From: Pleurostoma richardsiae
Taxonomy: Eukaryota > Ascomycota > Sordariomycetes > Calosphaeriales > Pleurostomataceae
Assembly: GCA_030052745.1 (NCBI GenBank)
Contig: JANBVO010000025.1
Coordinates: forward strand, 1-64,000
Direction of reading: 5' to 3'
Length of the DNA stretch: 64,000 nt
Below the pieces are notes generated by a model that did not search any database, was not told the DNA's origin, and saw only the letters and a list, made by a program, of their open reading frames with translations. Shown here in pieces: positions 1-33,413 of this stretch. The translations under genes and the position numbers were made by a program. The stretch's first letter is position 1. Every line of letters begins with the position of its first letter.

Positions 1-3000
1 ACCTAGTTTTTGTAGTAAATTTCTTAGAAATTGATACCAAAGCCTTGGTGATTGTTTTAAACTATATAAAGCTTTTAGTACTTTATAGATATATTTCTTA
101 TTTAGATTATATTTTATTCCTTTTTATTTCAATATATCTTTTATTAATTCAAAATATCCTTCGGGTAATTTAGTATATATTACTGTATCGATTTCTGCGT
201 GTACAAACGTACTTTTAACATTATATTGTTCTAATTCCCAGTTATTATAGATAGTAATAATTATAAATATTCTATAGATTTCTGGTCTACAAGTAGTAGA
301 AAACGTATTTAAATAATCGATACTATATATTTAATTAAATCCTTTAATTACCCAACGGGCTTTATATTTAATATTTTCTTCTATATTAAATTTATGTTTA
401 TATACCTATTTTCCACGTAATATATTTAATTCTTTATCTTTAGGTATTTCTATTATTTCATAAGTTTTTTTAATCTTCTAAACCTATTATTTCATTTATC
501 ATTCCTTTTATCTATTCTTTAGAATTTATACTAGTTATTATTTGTTTATATATTTTCGGTTCATTATTTATACTGTTTGTTAACGAAACTAACGCTAGTT
601 CGTCAATTTCATCTATATCCTTATTGTTTAAATAATATTCTTTAAAATTTCTTAAAGAATAATAGTCTTATATATCTTCTTATATATTTTCTTGTATATT
701 ATTATTACTAGTTAAATCTATAAATTCATCTGTAAAAGATTCTAGAAATCCTTTTATTTTATTATTATCTATATTATTTTCAATAAACTTATTTTCTAGG
801 ATTTTAACATCTCTAGACCATATAGCCTTTTTAAGCTCTAAATCCCAGATTCGGTATTAGTTTGTTCCAAAACCTATCAGAACTCCCTTTTTTACTTTAA
901 GGTCTAATTTTTTAATTTGTACGTTTTTATTTTTATAAAAGGTAATAGAACCCCATATTTTAATATTAATAATATCTAGTTTTTCTTTTGTTTTTAATTC
1001 ATATAGTGTTTTATAGTTTATTACACTATAAGGTGTACGGTTATATAAATATACCGCAACATATAGAACTTCTCCCCAAAAATAGAAAGGTAAGTTAGAA
1101 TTATATAATAAAGCTCGAACTTTATTTAATAACGTTCTATTTATTCGTTCGATAAATCCGTTTTGTTCTTTAGTATAAGGTACTAAATTCTAATAAATTA
1201 TTCCATTTTCAGTAAAGTATATTTTAAATCGTTTATTTATAAATTCCTTTCCGTTATCTATAACGAATATTCTTATTTTATAGTTATTTTTATTATTTTC
1301 TACTCTTTATTTATATTTATAAAAAACGTTAAAGGCTTCATCTTTATTTCTTAATAGTTCTACTTCTAAATAACGAGTAGATTTATTTAAGAAAGTAATA
1401 AAATATTTATAGTTATCATAAGTATATAATTTAATTTATCCGTATAAATCACTTACTACTTTTTCTAAATAATCTAATTATTTATTATTTACTTTGTAAT
1501 TTATTTTATTTATAAACTTTACTTTTATACATATTTCACAATCATCTATATTGTAATTATTATTATTATTATTATAACTAATAATAGATTCTTTTAATTT
1601 ATTTAATACGTTATTATTTATATAACCCATTCGTTAGTACCAAATACTATTATCTTCTTTTATATATAATAGTTAGTTAATTTATTCTTTTATATTAATA
1701 ATTTTAACTAGTAAATAGTATAAGTTTTCTATCTTCTCTCCTTTTATTATTATTTTATTATTTTACATTAAGACAGTGTTTGTATAAGTTAAAATTATTT
1801 TAGTTTCTTTATTAAGATTTCCTTGTAATATTAGATTTATACCTAGTTCAAGCATATAAAAACAGTTTTTTAATATAGTTTTTATTTTAGAATCAATAAA
1901 TTTAATATATACATTTCCGTATCCTTTTATATCTATTGTTTTTACATTTCCCCAACTAACTCTTTTATTACAAGGAAAAAACGAGTAAAAATAACTCCTA
2001 TCCATAACTATATACCTTGTTACAGCGCAGTCTAATATAAAATTAGTATTATATCTTATATTTTTACGAATATTAAATACCTTATGGTTTCGTGAATTTT
2101 CTTTCACGTTATCGATAGAAGAGATTAGTTTATTTAATTTTTTATTAGTTATTAATTCGTTATTAGTAGTAATATTAGTTATAAATACCTTTATATCTTC
2201 AAATTCGATATTATTTATATCGAAGTCGTTAATATCGATTAAGCTTATATCCGAATCTTCAGTTGTTTAGGTAGAAGTGTTAGTAAACAGCACTTCTTCG
2301 TTGTTTTCCCGAATATCCCTTAGATAAAGTAATTTTTCGTCACTTTAGGAAGAAAAATTAGTTAATTCCTTTTGTTTCTATTTCCAGCTTTTTAGGGCTT
2401 TATCTAGAAACAGAAAGAAGCAGTTCTTTGCTTCATATAAGGTTAGTTTACAATATTTACAAACCCTTCCTTTTATGATTTTATATAGCTTTTTACCTCT
2501 ATATTTAATATAAAAAGCGTAATTACCATTATTAATCGAGTTAATATTACATTCTCGCAATTCCTGTCTTTTAGATTTATTTAAAAGGTATGTAAATAAC
2601 GTTTCCAGTGTATAAACGTTAGAATTATTTCTAAAGCTTTAAATAACGTTAGATATAAATCCGTTGTAAATTTCGGATAGGTTATTTAATACCTAAGTAA
2701 TTATTATTTATTTAGGTAATTCTAAGCTTTTAACTTTTAATTAGTTTAATAGTTATTTTATTTTATTTAAGAATTCTTTCATAAAAAAAAACTTAAACAA
2801 GTAAAAATCGAAGAATTCCTTACAAATAAAGAATTCCGATGTAAATCCCTTTGAAGAATATAAATCTTTTAAGGAATTTCAAGCCGATTTTGTAGTATTT
2901 AAGTATTAAATCTACAGTAGGAGGCCATCTTCTATTAAAAAACGGATTGTTATAAAGGCCTTTACGTTGTTAGCCGAATTATTAGCTTTAATTACATCGT

Positions 3001-3666
3001 TTAAGCCTTCTTTCGTCAAGAAGGTAACGGTTCGAAAAGCCTAAACTTTATAGTTAAAAGTACCTTTAAACTTTTAAATAGAAACTTTCTTAGTAAACAT
3101 CTTTTATAGTTATAAATTAATTTATCAGTATATTTTATTTAAAAGTCGGGGTTTTATATAGTATTATACCTTGAAAAGTAATTCCGTTTCGATTTTAAAA
3201 ATCGACGTTATACTCGATTCGGAAGTTAGTAACTGATATTATTAATATTATATATTAGTTATATTATATATTTTTTATAATTAAAAAGCTCTTATATTCG
3301 ATTTTTAAGAAGTAATTAAAGTTAAAAATTGTATAAAAGTTACAATTACGTTCTTTATACAATTCTAATTTACAGTTACTTACTAAAAATCGAATTCTTC
3401 TTCGTTATAACAAGTTATAGTAGAAAACAGTAGATAAACCAGTTATCTTCTAATTATACTTATAGATCACGTAATCGAGTCACGGAACGTTAAGAAAACG
3501 TAAAAAAAAATACAATTTTACAATAAAGGGTATTTACAACCAATACAAAAACGTATTAAATAAATTAATTTTAACGTAGAAAATAATATAATATAATTAG
3601 TTAAAGTAAAATAAGGTTTGAAAACTTAAATGTAATTAGATAGACTTATTAGATGTAAAAGGTATA
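1..3666 (-). mobile_element. Ty1/Copia retrotransposon, internal gag-pol region (minus arm, degenerate)
   Basis: Read on the minus strand this is the inside of a Copia element, right to left gag, protease, integrase, reverse transcriptase. Near 1-100 the translation contains KALYSLKQSPRLWYQF, the Copia reverse-transcriptase signature. Around 1030-1195 it reads PYTKEQNGFIERINRTLL followed by FWGEVLYVAVYLYNRTPYS, the integrase core end. At 1763-2107 is the protease/pre-integrase part (ILDCAVTRYIV ... YMLELGINLIL). At about 2378-2560 is a zinc knuckle C-X2-C-X4-Y-X4-C whose His has become Tyr, a C-to-T change. Several in-frame stops, mostly TAA/TAG, and extreme AT richness show the copy is dead and fit RIP. 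The element runs off the left edge within the reverse transcriptase. The family call is firm; individual domain limits are approximate. Confidence 0.9.
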
Positions 3667-3685
3667 GGCAGCCGGGCTCATAACC
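3667..3685 (-). other. Primer binding site matching the initiator tRNA-Met anticodon region
   Basis: Directly inside the minus-strand 5' LTR. The plus-strand text contains GGGCTCATAACC, the anticodon stem-loop (CAT) of fungal initiator tRNA-Met. Copia of Drosophila is known to prime from a cleaved half of this tRNA rather than from its 3' CCA end. Here the match sits immediately next to the LTR end, where a primer site belongs. The tRNA comparison is from memory. Confidence 0.7.
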
Positions 3686-4005
3686 TATTAAAGTAGGTAA
3701 GGGGTTAAATGGATTCAAATTGCGATACTCTCTAGCTATCTTTCTAATTCTACAGTCTTTCTTCTAGATATATATAATTCTTATTGAATTTAGATTTGTA
3801 ATAGTTATAAAACCGGATATCTTACTTACCGAGATATGAAACCGGTTATCTCTATTCCGGAACGTTTAGTTGTTTTGGAATTCAATATTTGTGGATATAG
3901 TTGTTTTAGATTACCTAGAATTCAGCTGGAGCCTATTCTAGTGTTTTAGAGTTGTTTTGACTGTTTTAGAGTTTCATTAAACCTAAAAAGGTAATATATT
4001 TTACA
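3686..4005 (-). repeat. Copia 5' LTR, minus orientation
   Basis: About 320 bases, the reverse complement of the LTR at 4357-4705. On the minus strand it starts TGTAAAATATATTACC at 4005 and ends at 3686. The canonical terminal CA has become TA at 3687-3686, a transition. It lacks one 29-base tandem unit present in the other LTR. The first 150 or so aligned bases show about four differences, all transitions. The outer TG end abuts coding sequence of the plus-strand pol fragment with no spacer. Confidence 0.88.
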
Positions 4006-4263
4006 GGAATAAATAATAATATACCAGTAATTTTAACAGATAACCAAGCAGCCTTGAAACTATCTAAAAATACTGAATTTCATAAAAGAAGTAAACATAT
4101 AGATATATCTTATCACTTTACAAGAGAAAGTGTACAAAATAAAAAAGGAAAAGTAATACATATTCCTAGTAAAGAACAACTAGCTGATAGCTTTACAAAA
4201 GGCTTAGATATAAATAAACAAAAAACTTTTATAGAAAAACTAGGTTTAATTAAAATAAAATAA
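4006..4263 (+). pseudogene. Copia pol 3' fragment: end of RNase H
   Basis: The plus-strand frame is open from the LTR junction at 4006 to the stop ending at 4263 (85 codons) without its own start. It contains TDNQAALKLSKN, then EFHKRSKHIDISYHFTRE and the closing motif PSKEQLADSFTKGL, which together are the conserved end of Copia RNase H. Unlike the minus arm it has no internal stop. The 5' part of pol is missing because the frame begins exactly at the tip of an inverted LTR. It is followed by a short untranslated stretch, a polypurine tract and a 3' LTR in the same direction, so it is the true 3' end of a plus-oriented element. Confidence 0.9.
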
Positions 4264-4349
4264 AATAACGGTATTTAAATATAGTCCACTATATTAGAAT
4301 ATCAAAATAAATTCTATAAGCTTAAAACAGTACACTGTAATAAGCTTAC

Positions 4350-4356
4350 GGGGGGA
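4350..4356 (+). other. Polypurine tract
   Basis: GGGGGGA immediately before the LTR beginning TGTAAAAT. This is the expected position and composition of the plus-strand primer of an LTR retrotransposon. Confidence 0.75.
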
Positions 4357-4705
4357 TGTAAAATATATTACCTTTTTAGGTTTAATAAAACTCTAAAACA
4401 GTCAAAACAACTCTAAAACACCAGAATAGGCTCCAGCCGAATTCTAGGTAATCTAAAACAACTATATCCACAAATATTGAATTTCAAAACAACTAAACGT
4501 TCCGGAATAGAGATAACCGGTTTTATATTTCGGTAAGTAAGATATCCGGTTTCATATCTCGGTAAATAAGATATCCGGTTTTACAACTATTACAAATCCA
4601 AATTCAATAAGAATTATATATATCTAGAAGAAAGACTGTAGAATTAGAGAGATAGTTAGAGTGTATCGCAATTTGAATCCATTTAACCCCTTACCTACTT
4701 TAACA
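4357..4705 (+). repeat. Copia 3' LTR, plus orientation
   Basis: 349 bases from TG at 4357 to CA at 4704-4705, inverted with respect to 3686-4005. It carries two copies of a 29-base unit (core CGGTAAGTAAGATATCCGG and a slightly mutated copy) where the other LTR has one, which accounts for the whole length difference. What follows (ATAAC...) is the right flank; the matching target duplication cannot be tested because the other end lies outside the window. Confidence 0.88.
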
Positions 4706-6190
4706 ATAACTATTAAAAACTAATAAAAGAACTTTCATACGCTTAAGAAACTATTGTAGCTTATAAATAACGTTTAGAAAAATAAGTAAAATTAATAGGA
4801 AAACGTAGCTAGAAATATATTAAAAAGCCTATTAATTAAACAATTAAAAAGCCCGGAAAATATCATTGAATTAAACGTGTAATTAAGCTTTTTTTAAGCG
4901 ATTAAATTTAAACTATTTAAAAACTTATTTTACTGATAATTTAAAAGCGGAAAACCCTTAAAGGTTAGTAAGTAAGAATAGCCTTACTTTTTCCTATTTA
5001 AATAATCGTCGAAGATGACGATAGTTTTAAGGCCTAGTATTTACTACAGGAACCGTAAGAAGCTCCTATTAACTAGCCATAGCTAACAAAGCTTTTAAAC
5101 TTTAAGTTCTAAAAGTTATGTATAAATTAAATAAGACTTGAGAGTAGGATAAGAATTAACTTATTACTTAATAGAACGTTAAAGCTTTACTTCCAGGGCC
5201 TTTAGCTTTTAACTTATAGCTGGGTTTAGCTCTAGCCTTTTCCTAGATACATAACAATTCTATCTATCAGTAAAAACTAATCTTTTTTAAGGACTAATTA
5301 CTGATATTTTTATTACGCCCTTAGTAAGAACTATTACGTTTATTAAATTATTAACTAGTTAAATAAATGAACTAACATTATAGAAATAATAGTTATCAAG
5401 TTAGTTATATAATAATAGTAACTAAATATTATTTTAATAATGAATATTATTATGCTTAACGTTTTTTAAGTTATTATTATCGACGTAATCATTTATAATA
5501 ACTAGTTCTAATATAAGAAAGTTATTTCTTTCAGAGTAACGAAACTAAAAAAAGAGTTAGTTTAATACTAATCGTAAATATTACTTATTACAATAAGTTA
5601 GAGTTTATTACTTAAATTAGTACGTAAGTAGTTAAAACTAACTATGTAAAAGTTTATATAAATTAAAGTATGACGTTTAAGTTAAGATATTAAGTAATAT
5701 AGTAATAAGAGCTTAATTTTCTATTTAAAATATCTATCTATAAGGCCTACTTTATATAAAGCTAAGCTTAGTACTTTACGTATTAAATAAGTTTAAATGC
5801 TTTTTAGGAGAGTACTTAGAGTATTGTAGTAGAATGTAAAACTTTTAAGTTTATTTTATATATGAAAAAGAAAAATTATAAAATTAAAAAAAAATAAAAA
5901 GCATTATAAATTAGATTTATTTAATTTTTTACTTACTTTAATAATAACTTATATATAAATTAAAGTCTATATATAGATTATAATTACGTACTTTTATATT
6001 TAAAATAATATAATTACTTTTAAAATAAACTTAATTATAAGTTAATACGTAACTTTATACATTTAATAATAGAAGTACGTATTTTTCTCTTATATAAATT
6101 ATCTTTATTACATTTTTACTACTTCTTTAATTCATATGCAGTATGCCGTTATGTAGTTACGCTTAGAAATTAAATGAAATTCCGATTTCA
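4706..6190. other. AT-rich, RIP-like non-coding block
   Basis: Continues the extreme AT composition beyond the Copia LTR with TAA/TAG stops in every frame and no open frame of note. No second element could be identified by eye. Composition returns abruptly to gene-like GC near 6190-6260, so this is the edge of an AT-rich block. Confidence 0.6.
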
Positions 6191-6624
6191 TAGGTAATTA
6201 TAAAGGAAAATGCAGTTACTAACGGATGTAGGAACTAGGGTATTTACTGTAAGGTACGCAGGTGAATTCTACCGCCTCGCTACCGTAGGCGGTCAGAATA
6301 CTACTAGACATTGAGTCGCGGAGACGCGCTCCGCCTTATCTAATCTACAGGTGATATTAGTGCCTAACGCATCAGGCCAACAGATCTTACAGGACTGCAC
6401 CCCCCTGTCGCGGCAACACCACAATCCGGCACAAGTCGGCAGCATGCTCAAGCTGCGACAGCTTGGCTAACGAGCTGTCACGTGATGTCCACAATTTAGT
6501 GGGGCGTTATGGTTGAAAGCACTTTCCTCCCGTTCCGACGTACGTCTGCCCATCTTACGAGGAAGGGATATCCAGACGGTTGAAGGTAGTAACAGACACC
6601 AGATAGCGCGGCGGCTTTTGAATC
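6191..6624. other. Upstream region of NDUFB7
   Basis: About 430 bases between the AT-rich block and the NDUFB7 start. No open frame or repeat of note; presumably holds the promoter. Confidence 0.3.
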
Positions 6625-29093: not shown

Positions 29094-30220
29094 GTCGGGC
29101 TTCGGTCCGGAGTGTGTCGAAATCCAGCAGATAAGGGTCGGCGTGGTGAAGAGAGATCTCACATCCGGAGATGACCTTGTATTATTAGTGTAGTGAGGAA
29201 TGAAGACATGCCGCCTGGTGCTGGGTGTTTTCCGCTCGATAACGAGGGCCTTGCCGTTGGTGAGAACGAAAGCCGGAGGTACCGAAGTGCTCGTTCGGAG
29301 CTGTCGGAGCCCATATCCTTACTGCTGAGCTGTGATGATCTCATCAACTTGTGGAGGGGAAGATGGAGGGGTAGGTTGACATGCATTTGATGGCCATCGC
29401 TGGGAAGGGGAGGCACCTACCCACCACCCTGCCCGCTTGCCTTAACTGATTGACGCGGGTGGTACATGACTGATGCCCGAACCCCGCATGCAGCACCTGA
29501 CTGGGAACGCGGGAGGAGATCCATGGATTATCAGGTCATGGGGGCATACTGTACCAAAGACAGAACTCAATCGGCACAGCGGGCAGCAACAAAGCAGTAT
29601 TCGCGCTGTCAATGTAGTGTAGGATCCCCGCACCACCTCAATACGGTGGCGTCGCCCGCGGCTGTCATTTTATCGCCTTATCAATTGACCCTGCAGCTTG
29701 TCGTTTAGTTAGTGTGAAGATCCGTGCCAAAGAGACCGAGACTCCAGAGTCGATAGTACTCCTAACTGAGATACCTCCAACCGTGAACATGTTGTCAGCG
29801 TCAAGTTATTAATCTCGCTATTGCAACCTCCCAGCGGCCATGGGAGTGAGTCGGAGGTACCTTCTGTTAGGGCCGATAATCGAACGGAAAATTCCAGCCC
29901 CGTCTGCGGAGTCAACCGCACCCCCCAGACCGCCAGATCGTCTCGGTTCCCGCCCAATCCTCTTCTGCTTCACACTCATATCTCTGTCCCCAGACCTGTC
30001 AGCAACAGCAAGACTTGTACCAGAAAAGAGCGCCCGCCAACTCTCGGTGCTGCATCTCTCTGCAAACCAATTCCGCGACCGTCTTCGTCCAGCCGTACTA
30101 CACACCGTAAACAACCGTGAACGCATCAGCACCAACACCAGTCCGAGCCCGTCGAAGATCTTCAAGACCGCCTGTCTAACTCAAGAGCACTGCTCAAAGT
30201 GGCATATACTCTCTGTCAGA
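29094..30220. other. Intergenic: divergent Yippee/antizyme promoters and antizyme leader
   Basis: About 1.1 kb between two genes facing away from each other. An ATG at 29840 lies in frame with the antizyme first frame with no stop between, so either the antizyme N-terminus is longer or the leader is just open by chance. Confidence 0.35.
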
Positions 30221-31271
30221 ATGGCACCAATGAAAACTTTAAATTACAGTAGTCACAGTAGTAATTCCGGCGAGGACATTGTCCGCCAGGCCAATGTGCT
30301 CGCCAGTTGCTACCTCGTCGACGCCGCCGGGTCTCTGCGGGGGCTTCACTACTGCACTACCGGCGCCGCAGGTGCGTTCCCCGTTCTTCTTGACTCCGGG
30401 TTTCATCGTCCCGCTCCTACCTCTTTAGTTTTGCTAACGTCTTGTGTAGGGGCAGAGTGGTATTCCTGAGGTCCCCTCCTCAGGACTACCTTCACCTCCT
30501 TCAAGCCCCCCCCTCGCTGCGATCACTTCGTCCAACGAGCTTGCTCTGACGCACAAGAGCAAACGCCATCAATCCGGCAGCAGCATGCATAGCCGGCGAG
30601 GGGGGGCAACACTGCGTATCAGGGAAGAATGTGAGAGGTTCTTCTGCGAGACCATGAGGGCCGTGTTCCTTGGTGAGAGGAACACAGTCGCGCATGGCTC
30701 CGGCCTGACGGGTGTTCATCATTCAGCGAACGCTAGTAATGGTTGCTTTGCTTCTTACAACAAGCAAAACGGGCAGCTGGGCACTCCGCCCGACGAGTCT
30801 CCTCCGCGTATCCTACACCTTCGGGGGCGCGGTGTCCGAGGTAGTGCCTCCTTCACCGACACTGTCACTGCATGGCTGGAGGTGTGGGACTATGCTGGCA
30901 GCACTAGCTTCCGCGCCTTCATCGTGGGTCAGAGTGGCCAGAAGTCTCTTTTCGCCTTCTTCGATGCCAACGTCCTCAGTGGGGACCTCAAGCAGGCGTG
31001 AGTGCCAAGTCTCTCGCATTGTTCGCTGGTGTCATGTGTCCTCCAAGGCTGACGATTTCACAGACTTGTGGCTCTGATCGAGCTCGCCGATTCTGCCCTC
31101 GCATGCTCACAACTTGTCATTTGCATGGATCGCTCCGTCTCAGAGGAGGCGGCGAGGACGCTGAAAAAAGGCCTCCAATGGGCGGGATTCAGTCCTACCA
31201 CACTAGATTACTGGGCGGACGGGCTGGATGTCACTAGCAGGAAATGGCTTTTCATGGGCATGGAAATATAG
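30221..31271 (+). CDS. OAZ1: Ornithine decarboxylase antizyme (programmed +1 frameshift)
   Basis: Polyamine-feedback regulator that binds ornithine decarboxylase and sends it to the proteasome. Exons 30221-30371, 30450-30997 and 31064-31271. The first frame reads from MAPMKTLNYSS through VLASCYLVDAAGSLRGLHY and ends GAEWYS-stop at 30467-30469. Moving +1 at TCC-TGA (skipping T30467) opens EVPSSGLPSPPSS and a frame running through LRIREECERFFCETMRAVFL, VTAWLEVWDYAGSTSFRAF and GQKSLFAFFDANVLSGDLKQ. The last exon holds LVALIELADSALACSQLVIC and WAGFSPTTLDYWADG, which is the antizyme C-terminus. The total is 301 residues. Introns are GTGCGT...GTGTAG (branch GCTAAC) and GTGAGT...CACAG (branch GCTGAC). 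The start is the first good ATG; an in-frame upstream ATG exists. Without the shift only about 55 residues are made. Confidence 0.92.
30464..30484 (+). promoter_or_regulatory. Antizyme +1 recoding site with overlapping hairpin
   Basis: TCC-TGA at 30464-30469 is the shift codon and stop, the same pair used in animal antizymes. The stop lies within a perfect 7-base inverted repeat, CCTGAGG (30465-30471) and CCTCAGG (30478-30484), with a 6-base loop TCCCCT. A CCC/CTCC-rich run follows. The shift site is inferred because the conserved antizyme body is only reachable by it. The role of the hairpin is inference. Confidence 0.85.
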
Positions 31272-31691: not shown

Positions 31692-33413
31692 CTAAAGGTC
31701 GCCCTCGAACTGCCGAACCACCAGGCCCTTCTCCGCCAAATAATCTTTAACCTGCTTCACGGTATACTCGCCTCTATGGAACATCCCCGCACCGAGTGCT
31801 GCATCCGTTGGTGTTTTTTCAAAGACTTCCTTGAAATGGCTCGGGTTTCCTGCCCCGCTCGACGCTATGACGGGGATCTTGACTGCCCCCTTAACTTGGC
31901 GGATCAGTTCGAGATCGAATCCGCTGTTGGTGCCGTCCTTGTCAATGCAGTTGAGGAGGATCTCGCCAGCTCCCATCGCCTCGACAGCCTGGACTAATTC
32001 CACCACGTCCATGTCTCGCGTCTCCCGTCCACCTTTGATCGTACAAGCGTACCAACAATAATGCTCCCCCTTTGGACCGGGGAAGCTCGTCCTGATGATG
32101 TTGTGACGTGTTGCGTCTTGCTTGGGAACATACACGCGCTTTGGATCTACGCTGACAACGACCGCCTGGTTGCCATACGCCGCAGAAATCTGCTCGACGG
32201 CAGTATTTCCGAAAAGTTTCCTGCCGACTGCATAGTACTCCTCTGCGGCGATGACTGCGTCTGATCCGATAGAGACTTTGTCTGCACCGCTCTGGAAATA
32301 CATGGCGGCGATTTCAAGCGCGCTGACCTTCGTGCCGTCGACATCCACTGTGTCTCTGATACCGCCGCCTATTGTCAGGGGCACAAACACCGTCTGAGAT
32401 GTCAGTCGCAGTATCTCGAGCATGGGCAAGTCTGCAAGTGGACAGTCTCGGAAGCTGGTGATATTCAGGAAGGTGACCTCGTCGGCGCCCTGTTCGTAGT
32501 AGCGCTTCGCCATCTCCACGGGCTTGCCGAGGTTGCGGACGCTCCGGCCGTCGGATTTCTCACGTACATCGTATTGGTCACCCTTGGTCACGACAAGATC
32601 CCCCTGATCGTTTGTCCGTACGTCCAAGCAGGCGATGACTCGGCGGGTCAGACCTTCCGCTATGCTATGATTGACTGCATCATCAGGTGTCTGCAACGGG
32701 GTCCCAAGCGACTCTGCGCCATCGCCATTGAGGAAAGCTCGGAGGACCCGGAGACCGGCGACGCCGCTTTTCTCTGGGTGAAACTGGGTCGCCAGGATAT
32801 TACCCTTTGCCACGGCACCGACAAAGGTCTCGTTTCCGTACATCCCCGTTGCAACAGACCAGCCCAGGTCCTCCAGCTCGCCCTTCTTGTAGGCGTACTT
32901 GTATGAGTGGACATAGTAGTACTTGGAGCTGGGCCGTAAGTCGTATAAAGACATGCCCGAAGTGTTAGCGTTATTCCAACCAATATGGGGAACAGCCTTG
33001 TCAGAGTCGTCAAATCGATCCAGTGAGCCCAAGAGCAAGCCAAGGCCGGGGCAGTTAGGGTCTTCGACGGATCCCTCGAAAAGTGCCTGCAGACCGACGC
33101 ATATGCCCATGAAAGGCTTCCCGGCTTGTATGTGGGCGAGGATGGGGGGCAGGAAGCCCGCCGCGGCCAGCTGCCCAAGACAGTGACCAAAGTGGCCAAC
33201 ACCCGGGAGTATCAGCTTCTACACGCTGGTTAATACAGTGGTATAGGGTGTGGGCTAAGGTGCGAGCGGGCAGCTTGGATCATCATTCACCTCGGCCTTG
33301 GGCACGTCAGCGGGTGTTCTGACCCATGCTACGTCGTATCCCACTCGCTCTATGGCATTCACCAGGCTCCGCACGTTGCCCGCGACGTAATCTAAGAGGT
33401 GTACAGTTGGCAT
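31692..33413 (-). CDS. HIS7: Imidazole glycerol phosphate synthase HisHF
   Basis: Fifth and sixth activities of histidine biosynthesis in one chain: glutaminase domain feeding ammonia to the cyclase, making IGP and AICAR from PRFAR. Two exons, 33413-33291 and 33218-31692, separated by a 72-base intron (GTGAAT...GTGTAG, branch TTAAC), total 549 residues against 552 in yeast. The glutaminase triad is visible: Cys81 in [11 protein letters not shown], His188 and Glu190 in [10 protein letters not shown]. The HisF barrel starts [13 protein letters not shown] (Asp240), and has [43 protein letters not shown] and [16 protein letters not shown] with the second catalytic Asp. A Gcn4/CPC1-type site lies about 110 bases upstream of the start. 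Confidence 0.96.

Follow-up and report, generated by a model that had tools for sequence, protein, structure and literature searches.

An ornithine decarboxylase antizyme gene with a probable +1 frameshift at UCC_UGA in Pleurostoma richardsiae

The locus at 30221-31271 on the plus strand of the analysed window, a 64,000-nt stretch of Pleurostoma richardsiae DNA, is very probably (about 0.93) an ornithine decarboxylase (ODC) antizyme gene whose product is made through a +1 frameshift at UCC_UGA. Antizymes coded in two frames, with a programmed slip from one to the other, are well known from yeast to humans. The gene is of a well-understood type and adds one more classic case of recoding, and antizymes of filamentous ascomycetes have already been published. 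The part of PMC3432380 used here names those of Emericella nidulans and Botryotinia fuckeliana, which belong to the same protein family and probably come from the same subphylum.

The gene has three exons and two reading frames, the first ending in TGG TAT TCC TGA and the +1 frame continuing from there. Exon 1 (30221-30371) starts with an ATG in the context AGAATGG and carries the first 50 codons of ORF1 and one further base. Putative intron 1 (30372-30449) is 78 nt long, reads GTGCGT...GTGTAG, and has TGCTAAC just 5' of its AG. Exon 2 (30450-30997) contains the end of ORF1 (GAEWYS), the shift site TCC TGA at 30464-30469 with TGG TAT directly before it, and the first part of ORF2. Putative intron 2 (30998-31063) is 66 nt long and reads GTGAGT...TTCACAG; the borders of both introns, all on the plus strand like the exons, were set from the sequence. 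Exon 3 (31064-31271) codes for the remainder of the antizyme domain and ends with a TAG stop at 31269-31271. When intron 1 is removed, translation in frame 0 from ATG 30221 gives 56 residues ending EWYS-stop, and when one base is skipped after TCC, the spliced translation runs as a single protein of 301 residues up to TAG 31269-31271, with ...EWYSEVPSSGLPSPPSSPPL... as the predicted junction peptide across the shift site. Because the 78 nt of intron 1 (26 codons) contain no stop in the frame of ORF1, ORF1 is open whether this intron is spliced or kept. Read-through of intron 2 meets stops, and its removal is therefore needed for the whole domain.

This agrees with the first-pass annotation of the window, which had described a first frame ending WYS-stop and a +1 move at TCC-TGA joining the frames into 301 residues with two introns. 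Its statement that the second frame lacks a start was wrong, as two ATGs 5' of the antizyme domain, at 30585 and 30654, are in frame with ORF2. A gene caller could for this reason report a truncated gene in the second frame, rather than miss the gene.

The joined, spliced protein matches the Pfam family ODC_AZ over its full length (profile positions 1-114 of 114) with 146.2 bits and an E-value of 4.4e-43, the cut-off of the family being 24.2 bits. No other Pfam family was found at E up to 1. The match covers residues 189-301 of the 301-residue protein, or 30864-31268 (+) on the DNA, where the domain is interrupted by intron 2. Exon 2 by itself reaches ODC_AZ positions 1-45 with 48.3 bits, and both reference readings of ORF1, with intron 1 kept, had no Pfam match. 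The identification as an antizyme made in the first-pass annotation is thus borne out by a complete domain across the joined frames, and the search of both frames against antizyme profiles that it had proposed gave a full match for the joined protein, a partial one for exon 2 alone and none for ORF1. Searching all six frames of the assembly (39,432,242 bases in 136 contigs) with ODC_AZ gave one candidate and one match, at this gene. A phmmer search of PDB with the full protein returned nothing at E up to 10, though structures of human antizyme 1 are present there; in one single comparison, human antizyme 1 and the C-terminal part of ORF2 were identical at 15 of 61 positions (E 1e-4). A search for relatives of the 301-residue protein in viral contigs gave no pattern match, and among bacterial and archaeal genomes there were 28 pattern matches, none of them confirmed.

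A single copy of the motif TGGTRYTCCTGA lies in the window, where 0.02 are expected; two of 100 shuffles contained a match. Frames, shift site and domain together are not a chance finding. The arrangement is that of two overlapping frames with a +1 step at NNN-UGA, and the site proposed in the first-pass annotation, TCC-TGA, equals UCC_UGA, which is the commonest antizyme shift site according to the part of PMC5009743 used for this comparison. The same part gives a Trp two codons 5' of the shift codon as strongly conserved among antizymes and a Gly/Pro pattern at codon -7 as frequent. The Trp is present here (UGG UAU UCC UGA); codons -8 to -5 encode G A A G, with no Gly/Pro pattern at codon -7.

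Vertebrate antizyme 1 resembles the gene in the majority antizyme site UCC_UGA and the Trp two codons 5' (PMC5009743, in part), and its C-terminal domain is alignable; in the gene described here, UGA is followed by G. Saccharomyces cerevisiae OAZ1 is likewise a two-frame antizyme with a +1 shift, but its site is GCG_UGA_C, compared with UCC_UGA_G here (PMC5009743, same part). The antizyme mRNAs of Agaricomycetes are also fungal, of two frames and shifted +1 at UGA, but all those analysed in PMC4505036, as far as its portion used here goes, have UUU_UGA with a conserved nascent peptide, whereas the present site is UCC_UGA. In basidiomycete antizymes, the 3' structure is abutted by AAAU (PMC4505036, same portion); unlike there, no AAAU was found between 30467 and 30540.

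Codon preference was scored with tables built on 5721 codons, taken from ten further long frames of the window. After the shift, ORF2 scored +0.121 per codon in its own frame; the two other frames were negative (-0.080 and -0.094), and ORF1 had +0.063. No coding bias was seen over codons 1-60 of ORF2 (-0.004), a stretch that gives no support. Frame 0 is also open for 136 codons 5' of the antizyme start (29813-30220), with an ATG in good context at 29840 and no ATG between 29840 and 30221. An N-terminal extension starting at this in-frame ATG 29840 was considered and rejected: its codon preference is -0.007 vs. -0.015 and +0.016 in the other frames, which is about 2 sd below known coding stretches of equal length (0.142, sd 0.066), and the upstream stretch has no Pfam match.

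It is very improbable that the frameshift is bypassed by alternative splicing, with the TGA excised and ORF1 fused to ORF2 to give an antizyme. Such splicing would use the donor at 30372 with a hypothetical alternative acceptor CAG at 30481-30483 (+), with the sequence TCCCCTCCTCAG, and the resulting 112-nt intron 30372-30483 does preserve the frame and leave one ORF to the same stop. However, 75 GT-AG pairs at distances of 40-250 nt join ORF1 to ORF2 in frame, so a chance match is easy; donor 30372 occurs in two of the 75, just one of which has a pyrimidine-rich CAG (30483). The spacing of branch points does not support this acceptor either: eight branch-point-like 5-mers were tried, and the interval 10 to 45 nt 5' of AG 30483 has none of them. 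The branch A of CTAAC (30434-30438) precedes the end of TAG 30449 by 12 nt and 30483 by 46 nt, and that TAG holds the first AG downstream of it. The acceptor at 30483 is thus poorly placed, and its use would throw away the shift-site motif of the antizyme family. An automatic annotator might nevertheless draw the 30372-30483 intron to bridge the frames, and automatic annotation of such a gene may either truncate it or bridge it with a false intron.

Still less credence is due to expression of ORF2 alone from the internal ATG 30585 or 30654, which would give an N-terminally short antizyme; both codons are in frame and lie 5' of the antizyme domain, but the well-placed ATG 30221 comes earlier, and an internal start leaves the shift-site motif unexplained. 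Least likely is a pseudogene or an ordinary gene split by a one-base indel in sequencing: although a single base does separate the frames, the break coincides precisely with TGG TAT TCC TGA, and domain, both introns and codon bias are all intact.

With frameshifting at UCC_UGA as the preferred reading, its course in this organism can be predicted from the antizyme family. The two short introns, which fit the splice consensus, would be removed as drawn, and ribosomes would translate ORF1 (56 codons), most of them terminating at UGA. A fraction depending on polyamines would slip +1 while UCC occupies the P site, read GAG as the next codon and complete the antizyme of 301 residues. By analogy with known antizymes, frameshifting would respond to polyamines and the protein would have the family's targets: it is expected to bind ODC, disrupt the ODC dimer and hand ODC to the proteasome, and also to restrain polyamine uptake, by which the feedback loop would be closed.

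An inverted repeat at 30459-30490 (+) encloses the shift site. Its 13-nt arms (30459-30471 and 30478-30490) are paired at 12 of 13 positions and separated by a 6-nt loop. The repeat was noticed after the fact, and it is a lead, a candidate stimulator of frameshifting. A spliced stretch of 57 nt containing it has a folding energy of -27.1 kcal/mol (z -3.85); none of 200 dinucleotide shuffles was as stable, and one of 557 windows from ten other coding frames was. Of 5000 synonymous shuffles, 103 equalled or exceeded its stability, and 518 had every base of the shift site paired. Within the antizyme coding sequence, 6 of 284 windows are as stable, counting the repeat window and one overlapping it. 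The window has 15 perfect 8-bp hairpins (loop 3-10 nt) in 58,000 positions, and the 907-nt spliced coding sequence has two, the second of these lying elsewhere in the antizyme gene. Most known stimulators are wholly 3' of the shift site, as stated in the part of PMC5009743 used here, and the pseudoknot of vertebrate antizyme 1 is 3' of the site too, whereas the stable repeat here includes the shift site instead of following it. A point against a stimulator role is that the stem must be open by the time UCC occupies the ribosomal P site.

The usual target of antizyme, ODC, is not in evidence in the assembly, and binding to it is predicted from the family. Searches of the whole assembly with the Pfam profiles PF02784 and PF00278 gave nothing, with no first-look candidates for either. 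The two profiles matched 13 and 12 of 14 control genomes, respectively, these controls being prokaryotes with no fungal ODC among them. A 231-residue segment of human ODC, matched to human ODC chains, also gave nothing in the assembly at E up to 10 and no first-look candidates, an empty result that alone shows nothing. A search of the assembly with a degenerate DNA motif coding for [FY]AVKC and then N or K came back empty, and neither a bacterial-type OKR_DC_1 decarboxylase nor a PF02784-type arginine decarboxylase was found. Matches of the arginase/agmatinase family number 21 on seven contigs (C43, C49, C61, C75, C80, C82, and C110). AdoMetDC (394.6 bits) and deoxyhypusine synthase (363.7 bits) are both present, as is spermidine synthase, with three consecutive matches on C49 plus one weak match on C93; spermidine is therefore presumably made and used.

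The absence of ODC is probably due to an assembly gap or a search miss. It is unlikely that the canonical ODC was lost while antizyme and its frameshift sensor were kept, with antizyme acting on uptake or another target and putrescine coming from outside or by another route. Fungi without ODC are not reported in the titles or abstract openings of the literature searched. For human antizyme 1, mutation of Lys153 weakens ODC binding, and Glu219 and Leu193 are named together with it (PMC4595762, in the part used here). In the alignment with human antizyme 1, with numbering worked out from that part of PMC4595762, the equivalent of Lys153 is kept; that of Glu219, judged by eye beyond the aligned stretch, is apparently kept, and that of Leu193 is Ala. 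The kept Lys153 and the apparently kept Glu219 hint that an ODC-type target still exists. If ODC were truly lost, an antizyme without it would offer a natural case in which control of uptake is uncoupled from control of the enzyme.

The window starts at base 1 of its contig (C55), with an AT-rich block at 1-6200. In twelve 500-base windows, the first 6 kb have a G+C content of 17-27% vs. roughly 49-58% beyond, TpA/ApT of 1.16-1.66, and (CpA+TpG)/(ApC+GpT) of 0.18-0.69. Such dinucleotide ratios we take to be the signature of repeat-induced point mutation (RIP). Stop-to-stop frames in 1-6200 reach at most 167 aa. No tandem TTAGGG repeat was found in the window, and no tRNA in a search of it run with the bacterial code. 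Long uninterrupted frames are present, with a match to Vac7 protein of 428.1 bits. In the assembly, 104 HET-domain matches were obtained, some of which are pieces of one gene, and they point to a large heterokaryon-incompatibility-like repertoire. Taken together, the HET matches, the RIP-like contig end, the long frames and Vac7 suggest a filamentous ascomycete (Pezizomycotina). A search for 5.8S rRNA gave no match (1113 candidates, 39 scored). Tail to tail with the antizyme gene lies a bifunctional histidine biosynthesis gene of HIS7 type (GATase and His_biosynth) at 31692-33218 on the minus strand.
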